Notes under the pieces: model-generated
Database searches by the model: none
What the model was told of the DNA's origin: nothing
The model's input: only the letters and a program-made list of their open reading frames with translations
Shown: piece after piece, positions 4,474 to 15,000 of the stretch
Layout: every line of letters starts with the position of its first letter
Numbering within the stretch: position 1 is the stretch's first letter
Program-made: the position numbers and the translations under genes
Source: a virus
Length of the DNA stretch: 33,086 nt
Virus record (IMG/VR): IMGVR_UViG_3300042465_001206
Span: 1 to 33,086 of that record
Reading direction: 5' to 3' (one strand)

Positions 4474-7323
4474 TTAGTAAGTCATTTCGGTTGTGCGAAT
4501 TTGTGCCACCCATTGAATGGTTGTAGCTGCTTGACCAGTTGCCGTGATAGCTAAAGCACCATTGGTAACGTCTGCTGTTGCAGTTAGGTTCCATGTAGCT
4601 GCCCCTGCATCTGCATACAAAGAGGTTACGCTAGGTGTACCAACAAGAACAGTAGACGCCGCATTAGCGCCGCGCTTAATTACGCCTTCAATATACCAAC
4701 CTTTACTATCGCCAGCGCCCGTAACTCCCGCAACACACTCACCACGGAAATAATATGCTGAGTTATTGGGTAGGATAACTTGATTATTTACCGAAGCGGT
4801 ATTTGAATCAGAAGATAACGCTATTGCAGTTGCGTTAGTTGTTTTTTTCGCCAGAACCAGCATTGCCAATTGTTGAGCGCCAACTGTAAAATTTACAATG
4901 CTTTCGCTTGCGCCAATTACAATATTTCCACTGATACCGCGTGTTGTGCCATTTGACGCGCCTATTGTGGCTGACCTAAGCCCAGAGGCAACATTAGATT
5001 GACCCCCCAAAACAGTTGCGCCTTGAGCAGATGCTGTGTTGGTTAGCCCACCTATAACTGTTGCGTAAACAGCAGAGGCTGTATTAGTATCTCCACCCGC
5101 AACAATTGAGCTTGTTCCTGTGGCTTTAGATAATTTCCCAATCGCAACACTGTTAGCCCCTTGCGCTCCATAGGTGGCAGTATTATTTCCAATCGCAGCA
5201 GCAAAGCTGTCCGTGCCTGATGCGTAGCTGCCGCCCAACGCCATTGCTCCTGCGCCTGTTACTGCTTGAGAGCCGTTTGCCGCGCTATTTGTACCGAGCG
5301 CAGTTGAGTAGCTAGAGGACGCTGTGATAGCGCCCGAGTATCCAATACCCAAAGCGGTAGACCCTTGCCCAGAAGCTGTTAGGTTATATCCAGCGCTAAA
5401 AGAATAACTACCAGATGCGGTAGATACAAGTCCTATAGCTACACCGTTTTCCCCTGACGCAAGCGGGGCAGGACCACCAGTATCTAAGTTTTCAGCATAC
5501 CCTCGCATTACTTTCTTATTGCCAGTTTGCCAGTTAGTCCCGTTACAGACAACTTGCATCCCTTCACCGCGCCTAAGAATTCGCGTTGCTTTACCATCAA
5601 TTGTTTCTGCACCAGCGGGGTCAATCGTGATTACGTTTGAAGCAGTAGTGCCTGTATTCCAAATAGTTACATTGAACCCAGCACCAAGCGTTGCGGCAGC
5701 AGTCAGGCTTACAGTAAACGTGCCGCTAGTGCAGTTAATAACCGCGCCAAGATCACCAGCAACAACGGTGTAGGCTGCTGTTTTGTCGGAGATAGTCAGA
5801 GTTGCGCTACCACCGCCACCACCCGCAGCGCTCGTCCAAGTCGAACCGTCTGAGGTCAGCACATTCCCGCTTGTGCCGGGAGCAACAAACAATGGCGCAG
5901 AAGTGCCATTGCCCAGCAGCACGTTGTTAGCCGTGAGCGTTGTGGCTCCTGTGCCGCCTCTGGCTACCGTTAGTGTTCCGGTAGTCCCACTTAATATCGG
6001 AAGCCCCGTAGCGTTGGTCAGAGTACCTGATTGTGGGGTGCCGAGTATGGGTGTAGTCAGTGTAGGGCTTGCAGCAAACACTAGCGCTCCCGTACCTGTT
6101 TCATCCGTGACCGCAGCAGCCAAAGTAGCAGATGTGGGTGTAGCAAGGAACGTGGAAACATTAGCACCTAAACCAGAAACCCCTGTAGTAATTGGAAGCC
6201 CAGTGACGTTGGTTAGCGTGCCTGATTGTGGGGTGCCAAGTATGGGGGTAACCAGCGTAGGGCTTGCGGCAAAGACCAAAGAACCCGTACCTGTCTCGTC
6301 AGTCACCGCAGTTCTTAAAGTAGCGGAAGTAGGGGTGGCAAGGAACGTGGAAACGTTAGCGCCTAAACCAGAAACCCCTGTAGTAATTGGAAGCCCCGTA
6401 GCATTAATTAAATTACCTGATTGTGGTGTACCCAAAACAGGCGTCACCAATGTGGGGCTGGTGGACAGCACAACATCGCCTGCTCCTGTCTTTGTAGTCA
6501 CTCCTGTGCCGCCGTTAAGTACTGCTAGCGTACCCGCCAAGGTGATGGTTCCCGATGTAGTAATTGGGCTACCAGAAACGGTTAGCCCAGTTGTGCCACC
6601 AGAAACGGCAACGCTGGTAACTGTGCCGCCGCCGCCGCCACTGCCATTTGCAGCGGCTGTAATTCTTCCTTGAGCATCAACAGTAATGTTTGCTGCGGTG
6701 TAAACCCCTGCCGTCACAGCGGTGTTTGCTAAGGCAACAGTTCCAGTTGTGGTGATTGGGCCACCTGTCAAACCTGTGCCAGTTGCAACACTCGTGACCG
6801 TGCCACTACCGCCGCCACCGCCGCCCCCTGCGCCTCCGCTGGTAATAATTTTGATGCGTTCTTCTAGGTCTTGTGAGACTACTTCGCCCACGTTGATAGC
6901 ACGGCCCGTTGATAGATCAATAATCAGGCTGCCATCAAAGTCAATGTGCGCGTCAGTGACGGAAACGCCATCTGTGCCGTCGATACCGTTGCGCCCGTCT
7001 ACGCCGTTTGTACCCCGTGGGCCAACTGCGCCGTCTCGTCCGGGTCTACCGTCTTTTCCCTCTCGACCATTAACCCCGTTTTGCCCGTCTTTGCCGTCCT
7101 TGATCGAGGCCACACGATCTTCAATAACTGCGGTAACACCGTCATACTTGTCTTGCAGATTGGACTCAATCTTCTTTAGCGCCTGGACAACTACTTTCAC
7201 GTTCTCTGAAGCCTTGCGCTTTTGCAGAGCCTTCACCTCTAAGATGGAGCTGTTTACCGCATCTAGTGCGTTGCCCCCAAGAGCGTCAACACCGTCAGAA
7301 CCAAAAATTTTATCGATTTCCAT
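4474..7323 (-). CDS. Long tail fibre: collagen-like region, tandem repeats and YadA-like beta-roll, 949 aa
   Basis: The domains are clear. Residues 20-75 are a helical coiled-coil stalk. Residues 77-119 are 14 Gly-X-Y triplets (collagen-like trimer). Gly-rich hinges follow near 163-174. Then come GTVTSV-type fibre repeats, and from residue 297 two full 65-aa units plus part of a third, each beginning LGTPQSG. Roughly residues 620-805 carry many NSVAIG/A-x-G-type repeats that resemble the left-handed beta-roll of YadA heads. The last 140 residues are probably the receptor-binding knob. All these elements are typical of homotrimeric adhesins. It overlaps the portal stop by 14 bases. Placement between portal and scaffold, away from the other tail genes, is unusual. 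Confidence 0.88.
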   Translation of the reverse strand: MEIDKIFGSDGVDALGGNALDAVNSSILEVKALQKRKASENVKVVVQALKKIESNLQDKYDGVTAVIEDRVASIKDGKDGQNGVNGREGKDGRPGRDGAVGPRGTNGVDGRNGIDGTDGVSVTDAHIDFDGSLIIDLSTGRAINVGEVVSQDLEERIKIITSGGAGGGGGGGSGTVTSVATGTGLTGGPITTTGTVALANTAVTAGVYTAANITVDAQGRITAAANGSGGGGGTVTSVAVSGGTTGLTVSGSPITTSGTITLAGTLAVLNGGTGVTTKTGAGDVVLSTSPTLVTPVLGTPQSGNLINATGLPITTGVSGLGANVSTFLATPTSATLRTAVTDETGTGSLVFAASPTLVTPILGTPQSGTLTNVTGLPITTGVSGLGANVSTFLATPTSATLAAAVTDETGTGALVFAASPTLTTPILGTPQSGTLTNATGLPILSGTTGTLTVARGGTGATTLTANNVLLGNGTSAPLFVAPGTSGNVLTSDGSTWTSAAGGGGGSATLTISDKTAAYTVVAGDLGAVINCTSGTFTVSLTAAATLGAGFNVTIWNTGTTASNVITIDPAGAETIDGKATRILRRGEGMQVVCNGTNWQTGNKKVMRGYAENLDTGGPAPLASGENGVAIGLVSTASGSYSFSAGYNLTASGQGSTALGIGYSGAITASSSYSTALGTNSAANGSQAVTGAGAMALGGSYASGTDSFAAAIGNNTATYGAQGANSVAIGKLSKATGTSSIVAGGDTNTASAVYATVIGGLTNTASAQGATVLGGQSNVASGLRSATIGASNGTTRGISGNIVIGASESIVNFTVGAQQLAMLVLAKKTTNATAIALSSDSNTASVNNQVILPNNSAYYFRGECVAGVTGAGDSKGWYIEGVIKRGANAASTVLVGTPSVTSLYADAGAATWNLTATADVTNGALAITATGQAATTIQWVAQIRTTEMTY
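5990..6435 (-). repeat. Tandem 195-bp repeats inside the long fibre gene
   Basis: Two full units (6435-6241 and 6240-6046) and a partial third (6045 to about 5990) each encode LGTPQSG...TGLP; the full units then add GVSGLGANVSTFLATPTS and TDETGTG. The protein units differ at only about seven of 65 positions. The same type of module occurs twice in the second fibre gene at 28323-29297. Confidence 0.88.
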
Positions 7324-9331
7324 TTGTCAACTCCGAGGAAAGATTTTCAAGAAAATAGTCTTCCATGTCACCAGCTTTGTTCATCTGGAGTTCAACTATC
7401 TTGGATTTGTTCTTGATGTCAGCTTCTTTTAGCATCAACTCGGCAATTTTAACCCGTTTGTCAAATTCGCTTGACTCATTTCCAGCGGGTAAGTTCCTAG
7501 ATGATGCAGAAATTACCTTGGCTTGAGTCTCAGCAGGCATCAGTTGCGTCTCGGTCATCAGTTTCTGCGCCTCTGCCCGATTCTGCTCGGCCTGAGTCGT
7601 GTCAACCGCAATCGCAGCTTGAGCCGCTTGCAAAGCGAGTTGCTGCTGCATTTGTTGCATCTGCTGCGCTTCTGGGTTGGGTTGGCTCATCTGATCAAGC
7701 GCTCCAATCAGTTCAAACCTGTTGGACAGGCTGGAATTGGTCAAGATACCCTTCAGGATCAGCGGCAGCACTGGCGTATTAGGGCCAAGTGTCTGCAACA
7801 GACCAATGAACTGCTGCTGCTCGTACTCTCTAGCAATAATGCCCAGCGTAGCCGTTGGGATGAACTTCATGTCCACCGATGGATAGCGCTCGGGGTCAAA
7901 CTGCATGTAGCGAAACGCTGCCTTTTGGATGAACGGAATCAAGAAATCCTCTTGGAAGTTCACCAGTGTGCGTTTGTACTTCTTGATGATGGTCGCTACT
8001 GCCATTGACATGCCAGCACCGTCACGGTTGCCTTGGCTGACCATACCTTGGCTGTCCATCGTGCCAGTGGCTTGAAGCAACATCCTCTCAAACTCTTTGG
8101 CCGTGTTGAGATTGTTCAGACTCGTTTCGCCAAACTTGAACGGGTAGAGAATCTCAGATGGATTGCCGTTCACCAAGAACGCTTTGCCCGGTTTAACCTC
8201 AAACTTAGCGCCCCGTGGCAGCCGAGATGCGTCCAGCCCTATCATGGGGCTGGTGGTAAGCGCCAGTGAGTCCAAGTGGCTACGCACTTGGGCGTCAATC
8301 GCCTTTTGCATGTTGTAGGACTTCTCCACCGTGCCCCTGCCCAGCAGCCGGTTCGGGACGGTATCGTCCTGATAGGACAGAACTGGCCTGTCCTTCATCA
8401 TGTACGGATTTTCTTCAGCTTTCAGTAGCATTCCATCATTGGCAATCACTACAATAGCTTCCACCATGTCGGCGTAGTCCTCTGCAACCGAGTCATCGGG
8501 AAACAGATTTTCTATCTCCACATCTTTCTCAGTCAGGTATTCCCTCGGCACAAGGCCATAATAGGTTAAGAGGCGCACTTTCCCGTCACGGTACTGGCTA
8601 ACCTCTTGAGTCGGCTCAAGATCAGTGTCTTCATCGCCAGTGGTAATGTTTACCTTGCGGTAGATGCCCTTCTCAATACCTTCCACAATCTTGTGGATGC
8701 TGACAAACTTCTCAATCGCCACACCCATGCAGTCGTCGATGCTTGTCCCGTTGGGGTCAAACAAGAAATTCTTAGGATTGACCGGCATGATCTTGACAGC
8801 AATGCGGCTTTTCTCCACCACACCAATAGCTGCTTGCCCCATCTGGCCCGGAATTGGCTGGGTAGCTGGCTCAAAGACCTTCTCAGTCTTCACCACAATC
8901 TCGCCAATGCCAGTCCCATAGATTTCTGCCATCAACTCGATCTGATCGATAGCTTTTCTTATCTTGTCCTGCTTAAAATCTTCCGTTAACTGGGCTTTAA
9001 GCATCTCGACATCTAACGGGTTGCCGTTAACGTCTTTCAGATCGTCCTCGATATCGAAGAAGTCGCCCTGACCGAAGATAGCTTCCATGATCTCAGCGTG
9101 CCGTGTCTCGACTGCCTGCTGGGTGGCTGGCGTCACAATTCGGCTGCGCTCAGACTCGCGTGTCTTGTCCTCCGCAGACCATTCGCCACGGAAAATGCGC
9201 TCGTATTCTAGGTATTGGGATAAAAAGTTCGTGTCCCGATAATCTCGCCAGCGGTCACAGTGGTCAGTGACAAAGGCTGTTAACTCTTTGTCGTTTTCTG
9301 TTGGTTCTTCGAACTCGTTTTGATCCATCAT
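7310..9331 (-). CDS. Portal (head-tail connector) protein, 673 aa
   Basis: The 673-aa protein has the size and layout of large portals of short-tailed phages. The N-terminal part has ERIFRGEW and the SRIVTPATQQAVETRHAEI region. The central part has PVNPKNFLFDP and LSYQDDTVPNRLLGRG typical of P22-like or environmental podovirus portals. The C-terminal third is a Gln-rich helical barrel with QQMQQMQQQ. It would form the dodecameric ring through which DNA is packaged and ejected. It lies next to the large terminase, separated only by an HNH gene whose stop overlaps its start. Two adjacent ATGs are possible; the second (9328) has the better spacing of 7 bases from GAGG. Confidence 0.9.
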   Translation of the reverse strand: MMDQNEFEEPTENDKELTAFVTDHCDRWRDYRDTNFLSQYLEYERIFRGEWSAEDKTRESERSRIVTPATQQAVETRHAEIMEAIFGQGDFFDIEDDLKDVNGNPLDVEMLKAQLTEDFKQDKIRKAIDQIELMAEIYGTGIGEIVVKTEKVFEPATQPIPGQMGQAAIGVVEKSRIAVKIMPVNPKNFLFDPNGTSIDDCMGVAIEKFVSIHKIVEGIEKGIYRKVNITTGDEDTDLEPTQEVSQYRDGKVRLLTYYGLVPREYLTEKDVEIENLFPDDSVAEDYADMVEAIVVIANDGMLLKAEENPYMMKDRPVLSYQDDTVPNRLLGRGTVEKSYNMQKAIDAQVRSHLDSLALTTSPMIGLDASRLPRGAKFEVKPGKAFLVNGNPSEILYPFKFGETSLNNLNTAKEFERMLLQATGTMDSQGMVSQGNRDGAGMSMAVATIIKKYKRTLVNFQEDFLIPFIQKAAFRYMQFDPERYPSVDMKFIPTATLGIIAREYEQQQFIGLLQTLGPNTPVLPLILKGILTNSSLSNRFELIGALDQMSQPNPEAQQMQQMQQQLALQAAQAAIAVDTTQAEQNRAEAQKLMTETQLMPAETQAKVISASSRNLPAGNESSEFDKRVKIAELMLKEADIKNKSKIVELQMNKAGDMEDYFLENLSSELTNGNR

Positions 9332-9879
9332 GCGACCTCGTATCGGTTGTTTTTGCGCATATTTTCAAGTGCGGGTATGACGCGTAGGTTGTTAGGTACA
9401 TGAAGACCACTAACGAACTCGCCTTGTAACGGGATTATATGGTCAACATGCCAATCGTAGCCGCTTTCACGGCTGCGCATAGCCGCCAGTTGGTACAGGC
9501 ACTTGATTTTAACTAGGTCAAACTCTGTCAACCATGTAGGTGTCCGCTGCAATTTGGCGCTTTTCCTAGCCATTTGCAGTTTTGTGCGAATTGGCTGATT
9601 TTTGGCTCGGTATCTTGTTAGCGCTGCAAGATGCGCTTGCCTTGAATCGCCCGTAGACCTACGCTGCCTCGCTGCGCCGTTTATTTTTTCTCGGTGCTCC
9701 GCATCATACTGCCTATCCCTTAGGCACTTGCAGTTTTTGCAATAGGCTTGAAGCCCGTCTCTGCGACCCTTGTGCTTAAAAAAAGAAGTTGTAGGGAGTG
9801 TCTGTTTACATTTTGGGCAGAGCTTTGTTAGCTCAAACACCTGAGATGATGTCGAGGGGTTGCCAAGAATTTTCGTCAT
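9328..9879 (-). CDS. HNH homing-type endonuclease, downstream of the terminase, 183 aa
   Basis: A zinc-binding part has C21-x2-C24 and C47-x2-C50 (CPKCK and CKNCK). A long basic linker follows. The HNH core is HVDHIIPLQG (residues 144-153), then LHVPNNLRVI with the second Asn/His position and ENMRKNNR. The start is the ATG at 9879 because GAGG lies six bases upstream; a longer open frame into the terminase gene is ignored. The 5' end overlaps the last 47 bases of the terminase and the stop overlaps the portal start. It is a free-standing nicking or cleaving enzyme likely to act as a selfish homing gene. Its core resembles that of the HNH gene at the other end of the terminase. Confidence 0.85.
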   Translation of the reverse strand: MTKILGNPSTSSQVFELTKLCPKCKQTLPTTSFFKHKGRRDGLQAYCKNCKCLRDRQYDAEHREKINGAARQRRSTGDSRQAHLAALTRYRAKNQPIRTKLQMARKSAKLQRTPTWLTEFDLVKIKCLYQLAAMRSRESGYDWHVDHIIPLQGEFVSGLHVPNNLRVIPALENMRKNNRYEVA

Positions 9880-11095
9880 CATCTTCCTCAAAGTAACTGG
9901 TAACAGCCAGTTGGTCAATGTAAGAAAGCGCATCTGGAAGGTCGTCATGGACGCCTTGGCTCGGAAACATGAGCAGTTGATCCGTAAAGTCTGACCAATC
10001 TTCCTCACTATTAAGAATGATTCTACCGTGTTCAAACCTACCTTGCAATGACCAAATAACACGATCCGTCTTTTTTCTGTTTCCATGGGTCAGATCAACA
10101 ATATGGCTATAAATGTTATTTTTACGCATTAAGTCCGATAGGTACGGAAGAACGGCGTTTTTTAATGCGCCTCTTTCGATACCTACACTTAACGGCCTGT
10201 ACTCGCGCATTGCCATGAGAATACGGGATGCCGTGTCACGAATATCCCACCTGCCATGTTCAATCTCTTTGACAAACCACTTGCCGTCGTCTGTCACTTT
10301 TACCACCGCAATGGCCGACTCATCTAGCCTTTTCTTGGAATTCGCCGCCTGCTTCGCCACTTCCTCAAATCCCGCCAAGTCCACCGCCACGAAGTAGCTG
10401 CCATACTCAGGCTCGACGCCGTACTTGATCCACTCCTCTTTAAACACATCCGCGCCAGCGTTGGAGAAAGACGCCAAGAATTCCTGCTTGAACGCGAAGC
10501 TGCTGAGTGTCTTCTTGGCTGACTCAATCTCACTAGCGTCTATCAATGGGTTATCCGCTGTCGTGAAGTGCCATGACTTCCAATCGCTGTCCTGCTCATC
10601 TTGCCCCAACTTCCACAGGTCATGGAACCAGTTGCGACCCTTTGGCGTGCCAATAAACATCGCCCGGCCCTTGCGGTCTGACAAAGACGCCCGAATGACC
10701 TGCTCCCACGCCTCGGGCTTGATGTCGGCCACCTCGTCCAGCACCGCATAGGTCAAGGAAACGCCCCGCAGCGTGTCCGGCCTGTCAGCGCCCCGCACAT
10801 AAATCCTTGCGCCATTGATCAGCGTGATGTCCAAGTTGTTGACATGGCTCGACTGGATCACCTCGCGCCCCAGATCAAGCAGCAAGTCCCAAACAATTTG
10901 CCTCGACTGCCCCATCGTAGGAGACACATACAGCACTGCCGATCCCGGTGGACAACGCAAGCCCTCAATGATAAGTGTGGTGGCTGCTAGCCTACTTTTC
11001 CCACACCGCCGTCCAGCCGCAATTACTTTGAACCTCGTGGAATCTAAATAAACTTCTTGTTGCCAAGGCAGTAAGGAAAAATTAAGGTCAGACAT
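9833..11095 (-). CDS. Terminase large subunit, 420 aa
   Basis: The packaging motor ATPase and nuclease. With the ATG at 11095, Walker A is AGRRCGKS (residues 27-34), Walker B is YAVLDE (116-121) and the coupling motif is GTPKG (149-153). The C-terminal RNase H-like nuclease shows D239 (VAVDLAG), E307 (GIERG) and HDDLPDALSY (383-392). The 420-aa length is normal for the compact terminases of this group. A TTG start 30 bases upstream is open but less likely; neither has a strong ribosome binding site, perhaps because the upstream HNH gene was inserted here. The start overlaps the upstream HNH gene by 8 bases and the end overlaps the downstream HNH gene by 47 bases. Confidence 0.95.
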   Translation of the reverse strand: MSDLNFSLLPWQQEVYLDSTRFKVIAAGRRCGKSRLAATTLIIEGLRCPPGSAVLYVSPTMGQSRQIVWDLLLDLGREVIQSSHVNNLDITLINGARIYVRGADRPDTLRGVSLTYAVLDEVADIKPEAWEQVIRASLSDRKGRAMFIGTPKGRNWFHDLWKLGQDEQDSDWKSWHFTTADNPLIDASEIESAKKTLSSFAFKQEFLASFSNAGADVFKEEWIKYGVEPEYGSYFVAVDLAGFEEVAKQAANSKKRLDESAIAVVKVTDDGKWFVKEIEHGRWDIRDTASRILMAMREYRPLSVGIERGALKNAVLPYLSDLMRKNNIYSHIVDLTHGNRKKTDRVIWSLQGRFEHGRIILNSEEDWSDFTDQLLMFPSQGVHDDLPDALSYIDQLAVTSYFEEDDDENSWQPLDIISGV

Positions 11096-11594
11096 GAAAT
11101 TTATTTTTCTTTCTTTGGTTATCAACTTTGGTCAAGACCTGTAAATTCCACGGAACATGCAGCCCACTTACCAACTTTCCGCGCAATGGTACTATGTGGT
11201 CAACATGGTAATGTTCCCCTGTGTGCATACCAAGCATGTGCGCGGTAAAGTAGTATTCTTCAATTTTCTCAAAAGCACAATCATCTAACCATTTTGGTGT
11301 TCGCAGTAGCATTTCCGACCTTTTCTTGGCGGAATACGAGGCTTGCTTGTGTCTGTTGTCTGTGCGCCAAAGCACCATACGATCGGCGTATTGTGATTTT
11401 TTTGCTGAGTAGTTCGCCCGCATTTGGCCGAGACGATCTTCTTTTTTTGCTTCAAAATCAACAGCCATGCACTCGCAACAAGTGCCCTTGCCTGTATAGC
11501 GTTTGGAAATGTGGCCGCGCTTACAGGGTTTGCCGGTACTGTAAAAACGCTCGCCAAGTTCTTTTGCCTTGGCACGATCTGCTGCTTTTGTCAT
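11088..11594 (-). CDS. HNH homing-type endonuclease, upstream of the terminase, 168 aa
   Basis: The N-terminal zinc finger is C24-x3-H28 (PCKRGH) with CCEC near residues 39-42, a pattern common in phage HNH proteins. The catalytic core is HVDHIVPLRG (130-139), then LHVPWNLQVL and a basic end RKKNKF. The start ATG at 11594 has AGAGG five bases upstream. An open frame 16 codons longer lacks a good site. It sits between the small and large terminase genes and its stop lies 5 bases inside the terminase start. It probably cuts phages lacking the insertion. Core similarity to the HNH gene at 9328-9879 suggests shared origin, while the zinc fingers differ. Confidence 0.85.
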   Translation of the reverse strand: MTKAADRAKAKELGERFYSTGKPCKRGHISKRYTGKGTCCECMAVDFEAKKEDRLGQMRANYSAKKSQYADRMVLWRTDNRHKQASYSAKKRSEMLLRTPKWLDDCAFEKIEEYYFTAHMLGMHTGEHYHVDHIVPLRGKLVSGLHVPWNLQVLTKVDNQRKKNKFHV

Positions 11595-11658
11595 GGTGGC
11601 CTCTTTTAGAAGGGTTGGGGTGGTCAGCCACGCGCACCCCAAAACGCGCTAAAAGCTC

Positions 11659-12024
11659 TTACGAGTCGGCTTGCCTATATTCTACATCTTGAGCAATAGC
11701 CGCACCTTCAATAGTAGGTAAGATTTCGCCTAACCCCGTGATATTGATCGTGACTGCTGACCTTTGGCCTTTGTCTTTTTCAAACATGCTGACTGGCAGC
11801 GTCCTGTCCATGCACATCTTCAGCGCCGCCATCTGACCGGGATGCTCATCGTTGAGCGCAATCTGGATTACCTTTTCAGCTACATCCTTACCGCCAGACC
11901 GGATCATCAACTCTTTGAGCTCCTTGATGCGCTGGTGATCCGTCTTGGGTAGCGTCGCCGGTGGATTCTCTGCGTAGCGCTGGATCGTCATCTGGACTGA
12001 ACTTAACTTTTTTTTCGTAGCCAC
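11659..12024 (-). CDS. Putative terminase small subunit, 121 aa
   Basis: The 121-aa protein starts with a basic N-terminus (MATKKKLSSVQMTIQRY). A helical centre contains VAEKVIQIALNDEHPGQMAALKMCMDRTLP, and the tail is short and beta-like (SAVTINITGLGEILP). The DEHPGQMAALK segment is one I associate with the gene preceding the large terminase in environmental podoviruses. The start is GTG with AGGG a few bases upstream. It would recognise the packaging site and feed DNA to the large subunit. No classical helix-turn-helix is obvious, so the assignment rests mostly on place, size and the helical core. It is separated from the large subunit only by the HNH gene. Confidence 0.65.
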   Translation of the reverse strand: MATKKKLSSVQMTIQRYAENPPATLPKTDHQRIKELKELMIRSGGKDVAEKVIQIALNDEHPGQMAALKMCMDRTLPVSMFEKDKGQRSAVTINITGLGEILPTIEGAAIAQDVEYRQADS

Positions 12025-12486
12025 TTTACCCTTTCGGAGTTTTTGCTATTTTAGCTTTTTCGGAGGGGAGGTGGGTACACCAATATTCACAACCAACGAC
12101 GACCCCCTCCCCCCCCCATCCAAAAGCCAAAAACCTAGGGAAAACCCTAAATCCATATTCTACGATCATCATTATGTTAAGTGATTTAAAAGTTATGCAC
12201 ATAAAATGTAATGCCAACGATCTACATTTGTGGATAACTTTTATGGGTTGTGGATAACTTTGGCAAAAACCCTGTGGATAACCCGGCTTGAGCAGAAAAA
12301 ATTGGGGGGAAAAAGAAAAGAGAAAAAGAGGCGGATGGTGCTTCCCGGCAGTACCTAATCCCGATAGCCAAATCCTATCGACATCTCCAAACCGATAGCT
12401 TCACTCAAACAATACTTTTATAACAAGCCAGTTCCCAACCATCGCCAATGCCTCGCCAAGGGCTTTAAACGGGGCTACAAGGCGTT
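12025..12486. other. Non-coding stretch, left part of the origin-like region
   Basis: No convincing gene was found in these 462 bases; a 63-codon minus-strand frame at 12026-12217 is unsupported. The stretch holds a run of nine C (12109-12117), four DnaA boxes at 12193-12281, and a purine-rich tract near 12301-12335. The remainder to 12486 has short CCGATAG/CTATCG elements but nothing I can name. Confidence 0.7.
12193..12281. promoter_or_regulatory. DnaA boxes, left cluster (four)
   Basis: TTATGCACA at 12193-12201 on the plus strand, then TGTGGATAA (TTATCCACA on minus) at 12229-12237, 12249-12257 and 12273-12281. The first three boxes also share the flank AAAG before TTAT, read in the box direction, giving a longer repeated word AAAGTTATSCACA. 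The three inverted boxes start 20 and 24 bases apart. Confidence 0.85.
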
Positions 12487-12723
12487 CTAATCGTCAGGCT
12501 CTAGGATGGTCAGGGAGACAGCATCTCGTGCCGTAGAGGGCCGCAATCCAAGATTGTAAAAAAATTGGTAGGTGTCGATAACTTCCAAGAAGCCAGCGGA
12601 CATATCACCATCACCAGCAGCCAAAAGCGTAGCCCTCTCAGCGGGCCCGAGCTTGCGCTGGAAGTGTTTGACGTTAGGGTCTGCTGGTCTGCCCAATCCA
12701 TAAACTCCCATTTGAATCACCAT
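12487..12723 (-). CDS. Small possible DNA-binding protein embedded in the origin, 78 aa
   Basis: The 78-aa protein contains GRPADPNVKHF, then LGPAERATLLAAGDGDMSAGFLEVID. The ...LLAxGdGdxSAGf... pattern is reminiscent of ribbon-helix-helix-type regulators that carry a G-N/D-x-S-x-G-I/F turn, but I cannot confirm the fold. It ends YQFFYNLGLRPSTARD. The ATG at 12723 has GGA only three bases away; the fifth codon (also ATG) has a GGA too far upstream, so the exact start is uncertain. DnaA boxes flank it on both sides, so it could act in origin control or copy control, or regulate the late operon that begins nearby. Confidence 0.6.
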   Translation of the reverse strand: MVIQMGVYGLGRPADPNVKHFQRKLGPAERATLLAAGDGDMSAGFLEVIDTYQFFYNLGLRPSTARDAVSLTILEPDD

Positions 12724-12767
12724 CTTTCCAAAAAGTAGGCAACCTCAAGTCACCCTATCCAAAAAAG

Positions 12768-12968
12768 TTATCCACAGGCAAAACTCAATTTCAAGTCTAA
12801 CCCTCAAAAACCCTGCATCGCCTTGACCCTATGACCCCAACCCTAAGGGTTGGGGGTCAGGGAGGGTCAACTTTGGCGCTGTTTTGCCCATTTTTGACCC
12901 TGACCCTAGACTTGACCCTAGGGTCATTTAGGGTCAACATTTTAAAAGTTATCCACAGGTTATCCACA
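12768..12968. promoter_or_regulatory. DnaA boxes, right cluster (three)
   Basis: TTATCCACA occurs on the plus strand at 12768-12776, 12949-12957 and 12960-12968. The last two start 11 bases apart, about one helical turn, so they face the same side of the DNA. The first two share the AAAAGTTAT flank seen in the left cluster. They lie just beyond the stop of the primase-helicase gene (12982). Confidence 0.85.
12823..12937. repeat. TGACCCT iteron array with palindromes
   Basis: TGACCCT occurs on the plus strand at 12824, 12895, 12901 and 12913, and as AGGGTCA at 12863, 12920 and 12930; TGACCCC (12832) and GGGGTCA (12853) are variants. CCAACCCT-A-AGGGTTGG (12837-12853) is a palindrome, as is TGACCCTAGGGTCA at 12913-12926. 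Short repeats clustered beside DnaA boxes are what one expects of iterons for an initiator or regulator. Confidence 0.82.
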
Positions 12969-12981
12969 GGGCAATTTGCCA

Positions 12982-15000
12982 TCAAGTCTCAGCATTCTTA
13001 CGCATCATCATGCTGCTTGCCTGCGTTTCATCGACCATAGTCCAGCCATGTTCAGTCGCCTCAATCATCCCAGACTGGATTAAAGCGCCGATCAGCTTGT
13101 CGTTGTAGGACGGGTTAATCATATTTCTGACGGTGCGCTCGGCGTTCCCATCTGCCGCTAGTTTGTCTTTCAGGGCTGATCTGGATAGATACGGGCGGTC
13201 ATCCCTGACTTCAGCATCGCTGGCCCACCAAGCGTTCTCCCACATTTTGCGGTGGGCGTCTATCTTGGAGTCCTTCTTTGATGGGGCGGCTGGTGCGGTA
13301 GCCTGGACTGGAACGGCGCTGGTGACTGGCTGGTTGTCCTCGTCGTACCAACTTGGAATAACGACTTGTTGCAAGTCCATGTAGATGGGGCTGGCAATTT
13401 CTGCGTCCTTTGACTTGCGCTGCACCAATTGCATGGGTTGGTTGGGGCTGGCGGGGATAACGCTGATCTCGATGTCCAATGCTCCACGCCAGGCTGATGA
13501 ACCTCTGGCACGGTGCTGGGCTTCTTCGGATACGCCTGTGTGGTGGACTAAGATGACTGAGCAGTTGAATTCCAGCATTAGGTTGGAGCAAGCGTCCAGC
13601 ATGGTCTTGGCATCTTGGGCACTATTCTCGTCACCGGCCAAGAATCGGTGCAGGGTATCTACTACTATGACCTTTGGCGGATCGGGGAGCATTCGGACAT
13701 GTTCGACCACCTTGAGGTAGCCGACTGGGGTGTTGAGGTCGCAGCCATGTTTGGAGAGCCACATGCTGAGTTTTCCGGCTTTGTGGTGATGCTTCCAAGC
13801 GGCTATTCGGCTTTTTAGTCCGTGGTGGCCTTCGCCTGCTAAGTAGACAACATTGCCTGCTTTGACCCTGTTTCCGCACCAATCGGGGGTGGCGCTGGCA
13901 ATTCTCAAGCACCAGTCCAGCACCACAAATGTCTTGCCGCCACCAGATGGGCCATGCACCATGACCAAAGCCTGCTCCTGAACCCAACGCTTAACCAACC
14001 ACGAGATGGGGCTGGGTTGGGATGAAAACTCGTCGGCGGGGACGAGCCAGTCGGTCACTGATGGCGCTAAAAGGCTAGCCAGATCATGCCCAGCTTGGAC
14101 ATAATCGTTGGCATCACCGAGAATCGGAGGCATAACCATGCGTGCGCCGTATTTGGCACTGGCTTGCTCGGCATAGCGTTGGCCTACGCCAGAGGCGTCG
14201 TTATCGGCCACAACCACGATTTCCTGAGTTGGGCCGTGCTTTTCTCGCAATGAGCCGGTCACTGGCACTAAGTTGCTGGCGCTGTAGGCGACCACCACAG
14301 GGCGATTTGTAGCCTCATAAATGGTAGCTGCGGTGGCAAAGCCTTCGGCAACATAAATCGTGCCGGGTTCATCTAGTGATCCTATCTGCCAAAACTTACC
14401 ACCAGTTTGACCGCCTGAGTGGTACAACTTGCCGCCTTCGTGGTCTATGTATTGCAGGGTGGACAGTGTGCCGTCTGCATCGTACAGGGGAAGAACTAAC
14501 CGCCCATCTCCTGTAATCCGTGCGCCATGCACCTTGATGCCCTTGCGCTGAAGGTAAGGATGTTCGGCACTGGCCGCTTGTGCGCCTGTCCAGATTTTCT
14601 CGACTGTGTCGCTGGCGACCTGATGCTGGCGCTCGATGGCGGCGTCCCGCAAGGCTTTGGCCTCAGCTAATCGCTTGGCGTGTGACATTTCCTCGGTTTG
14701 GCTTAGTTTTCGGCCTATATCTGCACGCCAAGTTTGCTCCATACCAGCACGCCAGCACCCAAAACGCCCAGCGGGGATGCCATCGCCAAAGACCAAGTAC
14801 CAGCCCGGTTTGTCGCCGTGTCCTGGCGATCCCTTTGTGCCAGACCGAAAGCGGTGAATCTTGCCATCGAAATTAATTTCCTCTGGTGGCTCAAGCCCCG
14901 CAGAACGCATGGCGTCAATGAGTTGGTGTTCAGGGGGAGCGACTAACTTTTCTGGGGATGGCGACCACGGGCCACCGAGGATGTTTGACAGATCAGCCAT
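12982..15000 (-). CDS. Toprim primase / RecA-fold (RepA-like) helicase, 672 aa
   Basis: A two-domain replication protein. Residues 165-310 form a toprim domain, with E219 in IYVAEGFATAAT and D266-x-D268 in VVVADNDAS. Residues 335-520 form a RecA-like AAA_25/RepA helicase domain, with Walker A GPSGGGKT (350-357), Walker B VIVVDT (444-449) and LVHHTG (484-489). The N-terminal part (1-100) contains GKIHRFR and GCWRAGMEQTWR, typical of phage toprim primases, but no clear zinc finger. The C-terminal end resembles a winged-helix or DNA-binding tail. AAGG lies six bases before the ATG. It should unwind and prime DNA at the adjacent origin. Its start overlaps the HTH regulator stop by 8 bases. Confidence 0.9.
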   Translation of the reverse strand: MADLSNILGGPWSPSPEKLVAPPEHQLIDAMRSAGLEPPEEINFDGKIHRFRSGTKGSPGHGDKPGWYLVFGDGIPAGRFGCWRAGMEQTWRADIGRKLSQTEEMSHAKRLAEAKALRDAAIERQHQVASDTVEKIWTGAQAASAEHPYLQRKGIKVHGARITGDGRLVLPLYDADGTLSTLQYIDHEGGKLYHSGGQTGGKFWQIGSLDEPGTIYVAEGFATAATIYEATNRPVVVAYSASNLVPVTGSLREKHGPTQEIVVVADNDASGVGQRYAEQASAKYGARMVMPPILGDANDYVQAGHDLASLLAPSVTDWLVPADEFSSQPSPISWLVKRWVQEQALVMVHGPSGGGKTFVVLDWCLRIASATPDWCGNRVKAGNVVYLAGEGHHGLKSRIAAWKHHHKAGKLSMWLSKHGCDLNTPVGYLKVVEHVRMLPDPPKVIVVDTLHRFLAGDENSAQDAKTMLDACSNLMLEFNCSVILVHHTGVSEEAQHRARGSSAWRGALDIEISVIPASPNQPMQLVQRKSKDAEIASPIYMDLQQVVIPSWYDEDNQPVTSAVPVQATAPAAPSKKDSKIDAHRKMWENAWWASDAEVRDDRPYLSRSALKDKLAADGNAERTVRNMINPSYNDKLIGALIQSGMIEATEHGWTMVDETQASSMMMRKNAET

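Follow-up and report, generated by a model that had tools for sequence, protein, structure and literature searches.

The question raised by this locus is whether two related HNH endonuclease genes that overlap the two ends of one terminase gene travel with it as a single unit or reached it separately. The locus lies in a window of 33,086 nucleotides, the whole stretch of viral DNA that was analysed. A preliminary description of the window proposed that the two nucleases make the gene for the terminase large subunit (TerL) part of a co-inherited cassette. The evidence set out below points instead, in our view with good likelihood, to two independently acquired free-standing endonuclease genes of homing type, HNH-A and HNH-B, each of which brought with it the adjacent end of TerL.

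Organisation of the locus

The genes follow one another on the minus strand in the order TerS, HNH-A, TerL, HNH-B, portal. The junction between TerS and TerL is referred to as slot A and that between TerL and the portal gene as slot B.

11659..12024, minus strand: TerS candidate, 121 aa, assigned by its position and its homology to the ORF that precedes TerL in relatives
11595..11658, minus strand: leader of 64 nt from the TerS stop to the HNH-A start, with a Shine-Dalgarno sequence (AAAAGAGG) at 11600-11607
11088..11594, minus strand: HNH-A, 168 aa, predicted free-standing HNH endonuclease in the TerS/TerL slot
11088..11095, minus strand: overlap of the HNH-A stop and the TerL start, 8 nt, ATGTCTGA
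9833..11095, minus strand: TerL, terminase large subunit, 420 aa, read here as a mosaic
10919..11095, minus strand: TerL 5' tract linked to HNH-A, about 177 nt, placed by a change point
9833..10259, minus strand: TerL 3' tract linked to HNH-B, about 427 nt, placed by identity to locus L001
9328..9879, minus strand: HNH-B, 183 aa from the preferred ATG, predicted free-standing HNH endonuclease in the TerL/portal slot
9328..9331, minus strand: overlap of the HNH-B stop and the portal start, 4 nt, with the portal Shine-Dalgarno sequence GAGGT (9335-9339) inside the 3' end of HNH-B
7310..9331, minus strand: portal protein gene, 673 aa

TerL was identified as the terminase large subunit by matches to PF03237 (1.1e-13) and phrog_2 (7e-44), and the gene after HNH-B as the portal by a match to PF23899 (1.3e-16). 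Searches of Pfam and PHROG with the TerS candidate gave no match; its C-terminal tail ends in EDVEYRQADS, where HNH-A-less relatives end in a tail of the EDITDV type. No named phage has a TerL with at least 60% identity to that of the window. Adjoining the portal gene, positions 4474-7323 encode a 949-aa protein with a stretch of collagen-like repeats and no PHROG match.

Both overlaps at the ends of TerL are as first described, on the minus strand. HNH-A runs 8 nt into TerL, which starts at 11095, the sequence ATGTCTGA serving as TerL start and HNH-A stop. At the other end two in-frame ATGs are available to HNH-B, 9882 and 9879; a Shine-Dalgarno match (GAGGAAG, 9883-9889) was found for the latter and not the former, which places the HNH-B ribosome site and start within the acidic tail of TerL and gives an overlap of 47 nt with the end of that gene (9833). 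The 4-nt overlap of HNH-B with the portal gene had gone unremarked in the preliminary description. TerL is full length and both HNH genes are separate reading frames lying between genes. An Rfam search of positions 7000-13000 gave no match, on which basis intron-associated homing was ruled out. A hairpin in the leader ahead of HNH-A, considered as a translation switch for that gene, was dropped because the leader folds no better than shuffled sequences.

The two HNH proteins are related, as had been noticed, with 35% identity over 133 aa (protein alignment, E = 8e-25) and a common core of HVDHI-x-PL-x-G and GLHVP-x-NL. Both match PHROG 1035, annotated as endonuclease VII, and neither (P0002, P0003) matches PF02945, the family of EndoVII-type homing endonucleases with zinc-binding cysteine pairs on either side of a DHDH core, their own core being of the VDHI..PL form. 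A search of the window turned up no third gene of this kind. In a protein tree, quickly built and long-branched towards its periphery, the HNH-A clade comprises 21 rows, all from slot A (99% support), and the well supported HNH-B clade 4-5 rows, all from slot B. These clades are separate and not sisters, for which reason a local duplication giving rise to one gene from the other was rejected, and their separateness also speaks against a shared block. Values of dN/dS are about 0.04-0.11 among HNH-A carriers and roughly 0.04-0.13 for HNH-A and HNH-B pairs where dS is computable, and are uncertain in that dS exceeds 1 in all HNH pairs. These codon comparisons indicate that both genes are under purifying selection, with HNH residues intact. 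AlphaFold models of both proteins have a mean pLDDT of about 65, with most of the HNH core below 50, and a PDB sequence search with both HNH family alignments returned nothing convincing.

Occupancy of the two slots

A scan by TerL protein yielded 80 close loci, from most of which both HNH genes are absent. Of the 69 loci in which the state of both slots could be determined, the window included, 22 have an occupant in slot A, 25 have one in slot B and 32 have neither slot filled. The occupants of slot A include HNH-A, EndoVII-type genes, a NUMOD3-bearing GIY-YIG-like gene and HNH_3 nucleases among others, and those of slot B include HNH-B, other nucleases and non-nuclease proteins. With the HNH-A protein as query a scan found 30 loci, in 29 of which the gene lies between TerS and TerL. 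HNH-B and its near relatives are found between TerL and the portal gene, with more distant relatives at either slot or elsewhere. Comparison with relatives lacking each HNH had been proposed at the outset, and has borne out the homing prediction: many alleles lack an HNH gene, insertion occurs at precise points and the adjacent end of TerL travels along. Universal carriage of both genes by relatives, or a lack of relationship between the two proteins, had been named as grounds for abandoning the idea, and neither was found.

It could be supposed that the two HNH proteins aid the terminase in DNA cutting or packaging, in the manner of HK97 gp74. They adjoin terminase and portal, HNH proteins in such a position act in HK97 packaging (PMC10448857), and an HNH gene is present between TerL and portal in 89/89 Skunavirus genomes (PMC12724721). 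However, most close relatives of the window lack both genes yet retain TerS, TerL and portal, which makes a packaging role very unlikely; the slots also take unrelated genes (GIY-YIG-like, EndoVII, HNH_3 and non-nuclease).

The occupancy data bear equally on the proposal that the two HNH genes act jointly as an HEG island, moving TerL as a single block of cargo. The layout is that of published HEGs which bracket essential genes and whose HEG content is unstable (PMC10448857), and both slots are occupied by something in 10/69 loci. Occupancy of one slot is nevertheless independent of the other (Fisher p = 0.30, 69 loci). HNH-A and HNH-B occur together only in the window and in contig L081/L113, which is 99.94% identical to the window and hence, being the same virus, was left out as an independent case. 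Nor are phages with a common HNH more alike in the middle of TerL, the window being 82-83% identical there to L026 (HNH-A) or L001 (HNH-B). Because this middle portion, some 640 nt, travels with neither HNH, the whole-gene cassette is not supported; together with the separate clades and the independent occupancy, this removes the basis for regarding the terminase as one co-inherited block, and joint transport is considered highly improbable.

Independent acquisition of the two genes is consistent with the junctions. In 44/49 empty loci TerS and TerL overlap by 8 nt, the same overlap as that between HNH-A and TerL in the window. Most carriers from other HNH-A subclades have HNH-A exactly in this overlap, with 8-nt overlaps of TerS with HNH-A and of HNH-A with TerL; in the subclade of the window the 64-nt leader takes the place of the TerS/HNH-A overlap. 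A similar leader is present in L042, but ahead of a different, EndoVII-type nuclease, the slot-A protein of this locus matching PF02945. In the HNH-B carriers L001 and L079 the old TerL/portal junction, GGGGTCT, is found ahead of the portal start and TerL's own end is recoded.

Several other arrangements were observed at these junctions. In L164 and L166 TerS is flanked by two different HNH genes, one upstream and one between TerS and TerL, showing recurrent stacking of such genes around packaging genes. The TerS-TerL gap of L005, L016 and L038 contains a conserved insert of about 425 nt in which two open frames overlap, one of about 146-153 aa that has no Pfam match and one of about 130 aa. 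Slot B of L010, L013, L021, L028, L031, L057, L058, L060 and L072 encodes non-nuclease proteins with varied middles and a common C-terminal tail (Y-x-DPF..T..TTR type), part of which doubles as the portal ribosome site, and several of the slot-B non-nuclease proteins also have a common N-terminal block (MADEIRATPRSPLFGLFSD...). The slot-B proteins of L049 and, weakly, L057 match acetyltransferase families and that of L021 has an HEQEH motif. Possibly the non-nuclease proteins are cargo that the virion delivers, fitted with a standard end.

Terminase ends linked to the nucleases and their translation signals

HNH-A carriers have the first 150-250 nt or so of TerL in common, and this stretch differs by about 30% from that of otherwise similar phages without HNH-A. 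When L014, L026, L035, L036, L091 and L094 are compared with the nearest HNH-A-less phage, identity is 89-93% in the middle of TerL and 67-77% in nt 1-210, and this same nt 1-210 is 97-100% identical to that of another carrier. In these six loci the change point falls 144-249 nt into TerL and raises the log-likelihood by 21-42, whereas none of the 49 controls gains more than 12. The change point of the window (177 nt) is weak (gain 8.0), although clear in other carriers, and identity to the nearest HNH-A-less backbone is 71% inside the 5' tract and 85% outside it. Mapping the HNH-A label onto trees requires 3 changes when the tree is built from TerL nt 1-210 and 10 when it is built from nt 316-840. 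Where the amino acid is the same, the codon is too in 28-38% of cases inside linked tracts and in 64-76% outside. The tract on the TerS side is short, identity between L094 and L074 dropping only in roughly the last 80-90 nt. For the carriers L104-L109 no firm tract could be drawn, all empty relatives being too distant. At the level of sequence, these comparisons argue strongly for co-conversion of the flank with HNH-A.

At the other end of the gene the window and L001, both HNH-B carriers, are 90-97% identical over the last 430 nt or so of TerL, and the 3' tract of the window is 70% identical to the nearest HNH-B-less backbone. L001 and its HNH-B-less neighbour L002 are 89% identical up to a point about 443 nt short of the TerL end and 72% identical beyond it; no tract is seen on the portal side of HNH-B, where these two are 94% identical in the first 100 nt. 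The first sample held three independent HNH-B carriers with full TerL (window, L001 and L079). L079 has no clear shared 3' tract, and the tract therefore rests on the window and L001, and on L003, which has a different nuclease in slot B and much of its TerL tail in common with L001. Mosaicism at the 3' end of TerL is also present in the slot-B-empty loci L036 and L041 (log-likelihood gain 21 and 18), so that recombination near TerL nt 840 is not tied to HNH-B alone. For both of these reasons the case for co-conversion is weaker for HNH-B than for HNH-A.

An ordinary hot spot of mosaic recombination might be proposed, at which the junctions tolerate inserts and the linked tracts are due to hitchhiking, with no drive by an endonuclease. 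This would accommodate the TerL mosaicism of some empty alleles and the frequent non-nuclease genes of slot B, which have no linked tract. It fits poorly, however, with an HNH-A linkage that is strong, recurrent and limited to the tract beside the gene, and with strong purifying selection on two HNH genes whose HNH residues are intact, and we regard it as unlikely.

We therefore return to homing by two separate genes. Each nuclease would most likely cut the terminase end beside its slot in phages that lack that nuclease. Repair would then copy the nuclease gene together with the adjoining TerL end (about 150-250 nt for HNH-A and 430 nt for HNH-B), and the recoded end would no longer be cut, which would protect the carrier. 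A computational search located no target site for HNH-A or HNH-B. If each HNH was copied with its TerL end, the TerL of the window would be a mosaic of three parts, its 5' end linked to HNH-A, its middle belonging to the backbone and its 3' end linked to HNH-B. With the boundaries of exchange inside the terminase gene and not around it, trees or taxonomy built from the TerL ends would partly follow the nuclease.

The TerL start is also altered. In empty alleles it has a Shine-Dalgarno match with a median of -5.8 kcal/mol, at -4 or better in 43/49, against a median of -0.9 and a site in 6/26 among HNH-A carriers; the starts of HNH-A itself have one in 25/26. This contrast at TerL arises from few evolutionary events and its p-value of 1e-8 is therefore an overstatement. 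The TerL site has been lost in the window group and in L088-L103 (with one exception, L098); L104-L108 have a TerL site near the 3' end of HNH-A and L109 a weaker one. The suggestion that insertion deprived TerL of a strong ribosome site thus holds for the HNH-A clade of the window, given the 43/49 empty alleles with a site, but does not extend to L104-L108. The idea that the missing site is ancestral, along with the 8-nt overlap, proved wrong, as most empty alleles have both overlap and site. Behind the GIY-YIG-like gene in slot A of L028, L030 and L039, the TerL start position is ATC (ATCAGCGAT) and not ATG. At slot B the portal ribosome site is kept in 51/51 empty and 8/8 scored nuclease-bearing alleles, and 30/52 slot-B-empty loci already have, within the TerL tail, a ribosome site and in-frame ATG comparable to those used by HNH-B.

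In the HNH-A clade of the window TerL retains only the stop/start overlap, HNH-A itself starting from the upstream ribosome site, and TerL is presumably translated by coupling to HNH-A. It is possible, though we put this forward only tentatively, that HNH-A holds TerL translation hostage, TerL being made only if ribosomes read HNH-A through to its end. Were this so, loss or frameshift of HNH-A would cripple an essential gene and so act as a translational guard against deletion, and with HNH-B at the other end both TerL termini would be owned by different selfish genes. The locus makes it possible to test an arrangement in which a selfish gene sits over the translation start of an indispensable phage gene.

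Comparison with known systems

Separate frames between genes, HNH-less alleles, orthologues at one site and apparent co-conversion of the flank (strong for HNH-A, seen in few carriers for HNH-B) are, as far as sequence can tell, the properties of free-standing homing genes. The free-standing homing endonucleases of T4-like phages (SegF, SegG and MobE) are intergenic, absent from relatives, overlap the upstream gene and co-convert their neighbours, and such genes are retained through signals needed by the downstream gene (PMC2988022). HNH-A and HNH-B appear to resemble them in being intergenic and sporadic, in overlapping the upstream gene and in the co-conversion of their flanks. The present case differs in having a single gene flanked by two members of the same wider HNH family, and a downstream gene that, in the clade of the window, has lost a ribosome site and not a promoter.

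Among cultured phages, a distant HNH occupies the TerS/TerL slot of the Xanthomonas phages FoX1, FoX2 and FoX5 and is absent from their close relative Murka. The FoX2 protein, in the same slot as HNH-A, has 34% identity to it, although these phages belong to a different lineage and no clear linked tract was seen there. The gene in this slot of FoX1, FoX2, FoX3 and FoX5 (L204, L206-L208) is annotated as glycolate dehydrogenase, an annotation that looks wrong since the FoX2 gene matches the HNH family. HK97 gp74 and Skunavirus HrdP are likewise HNH proteins adjoining terminase or portal, but have been presented as conserved components of packaging modules, whereas HNH-A and HNH-B are sporadic. 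Homing endonucleases of the F-CphI/EndoVII type (DHHRN; PMC6083498) belong to the same beta-beta-alpha-metal nuclease superfamily as HNH-A and HNH-B, whose PHROG match (1035) carries the endonuclease VII annotation; HNH-A and HNH-B differ in their HNH-type core and the absence of PF02945, and true EndoVII-type genes fill the same slots in other relatives.

The closest parallel in layout is with HEG islands, in which HEGs bracket essential genes, with terminase among their commonest neighbours (Barth, Dunham and Seed 2023, PMC10448857); bracketing of an essential gene by HEGs is thus already published. Nucleases on both sides of an essential gene, the same slots, exchangeable nuclease types and marked boundaries of exchange are common to both. 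The high-identity cargo between otherwise different phages that is expected of an island is not seen here (TerL middle 82-83%), and the exchanged units are the two TerL ends, each with its own HNH, rather than a whole gene as cargo. What is new here is that the units of exchange end inside one gene from both sides, as well as the possibility that TerL can be translated only by way of HNH-A. The locus provides, with many alleles in an uncultured phage lineage, a clear natural example of free-standing nuclease genes reshaping an essential gene from both ends.
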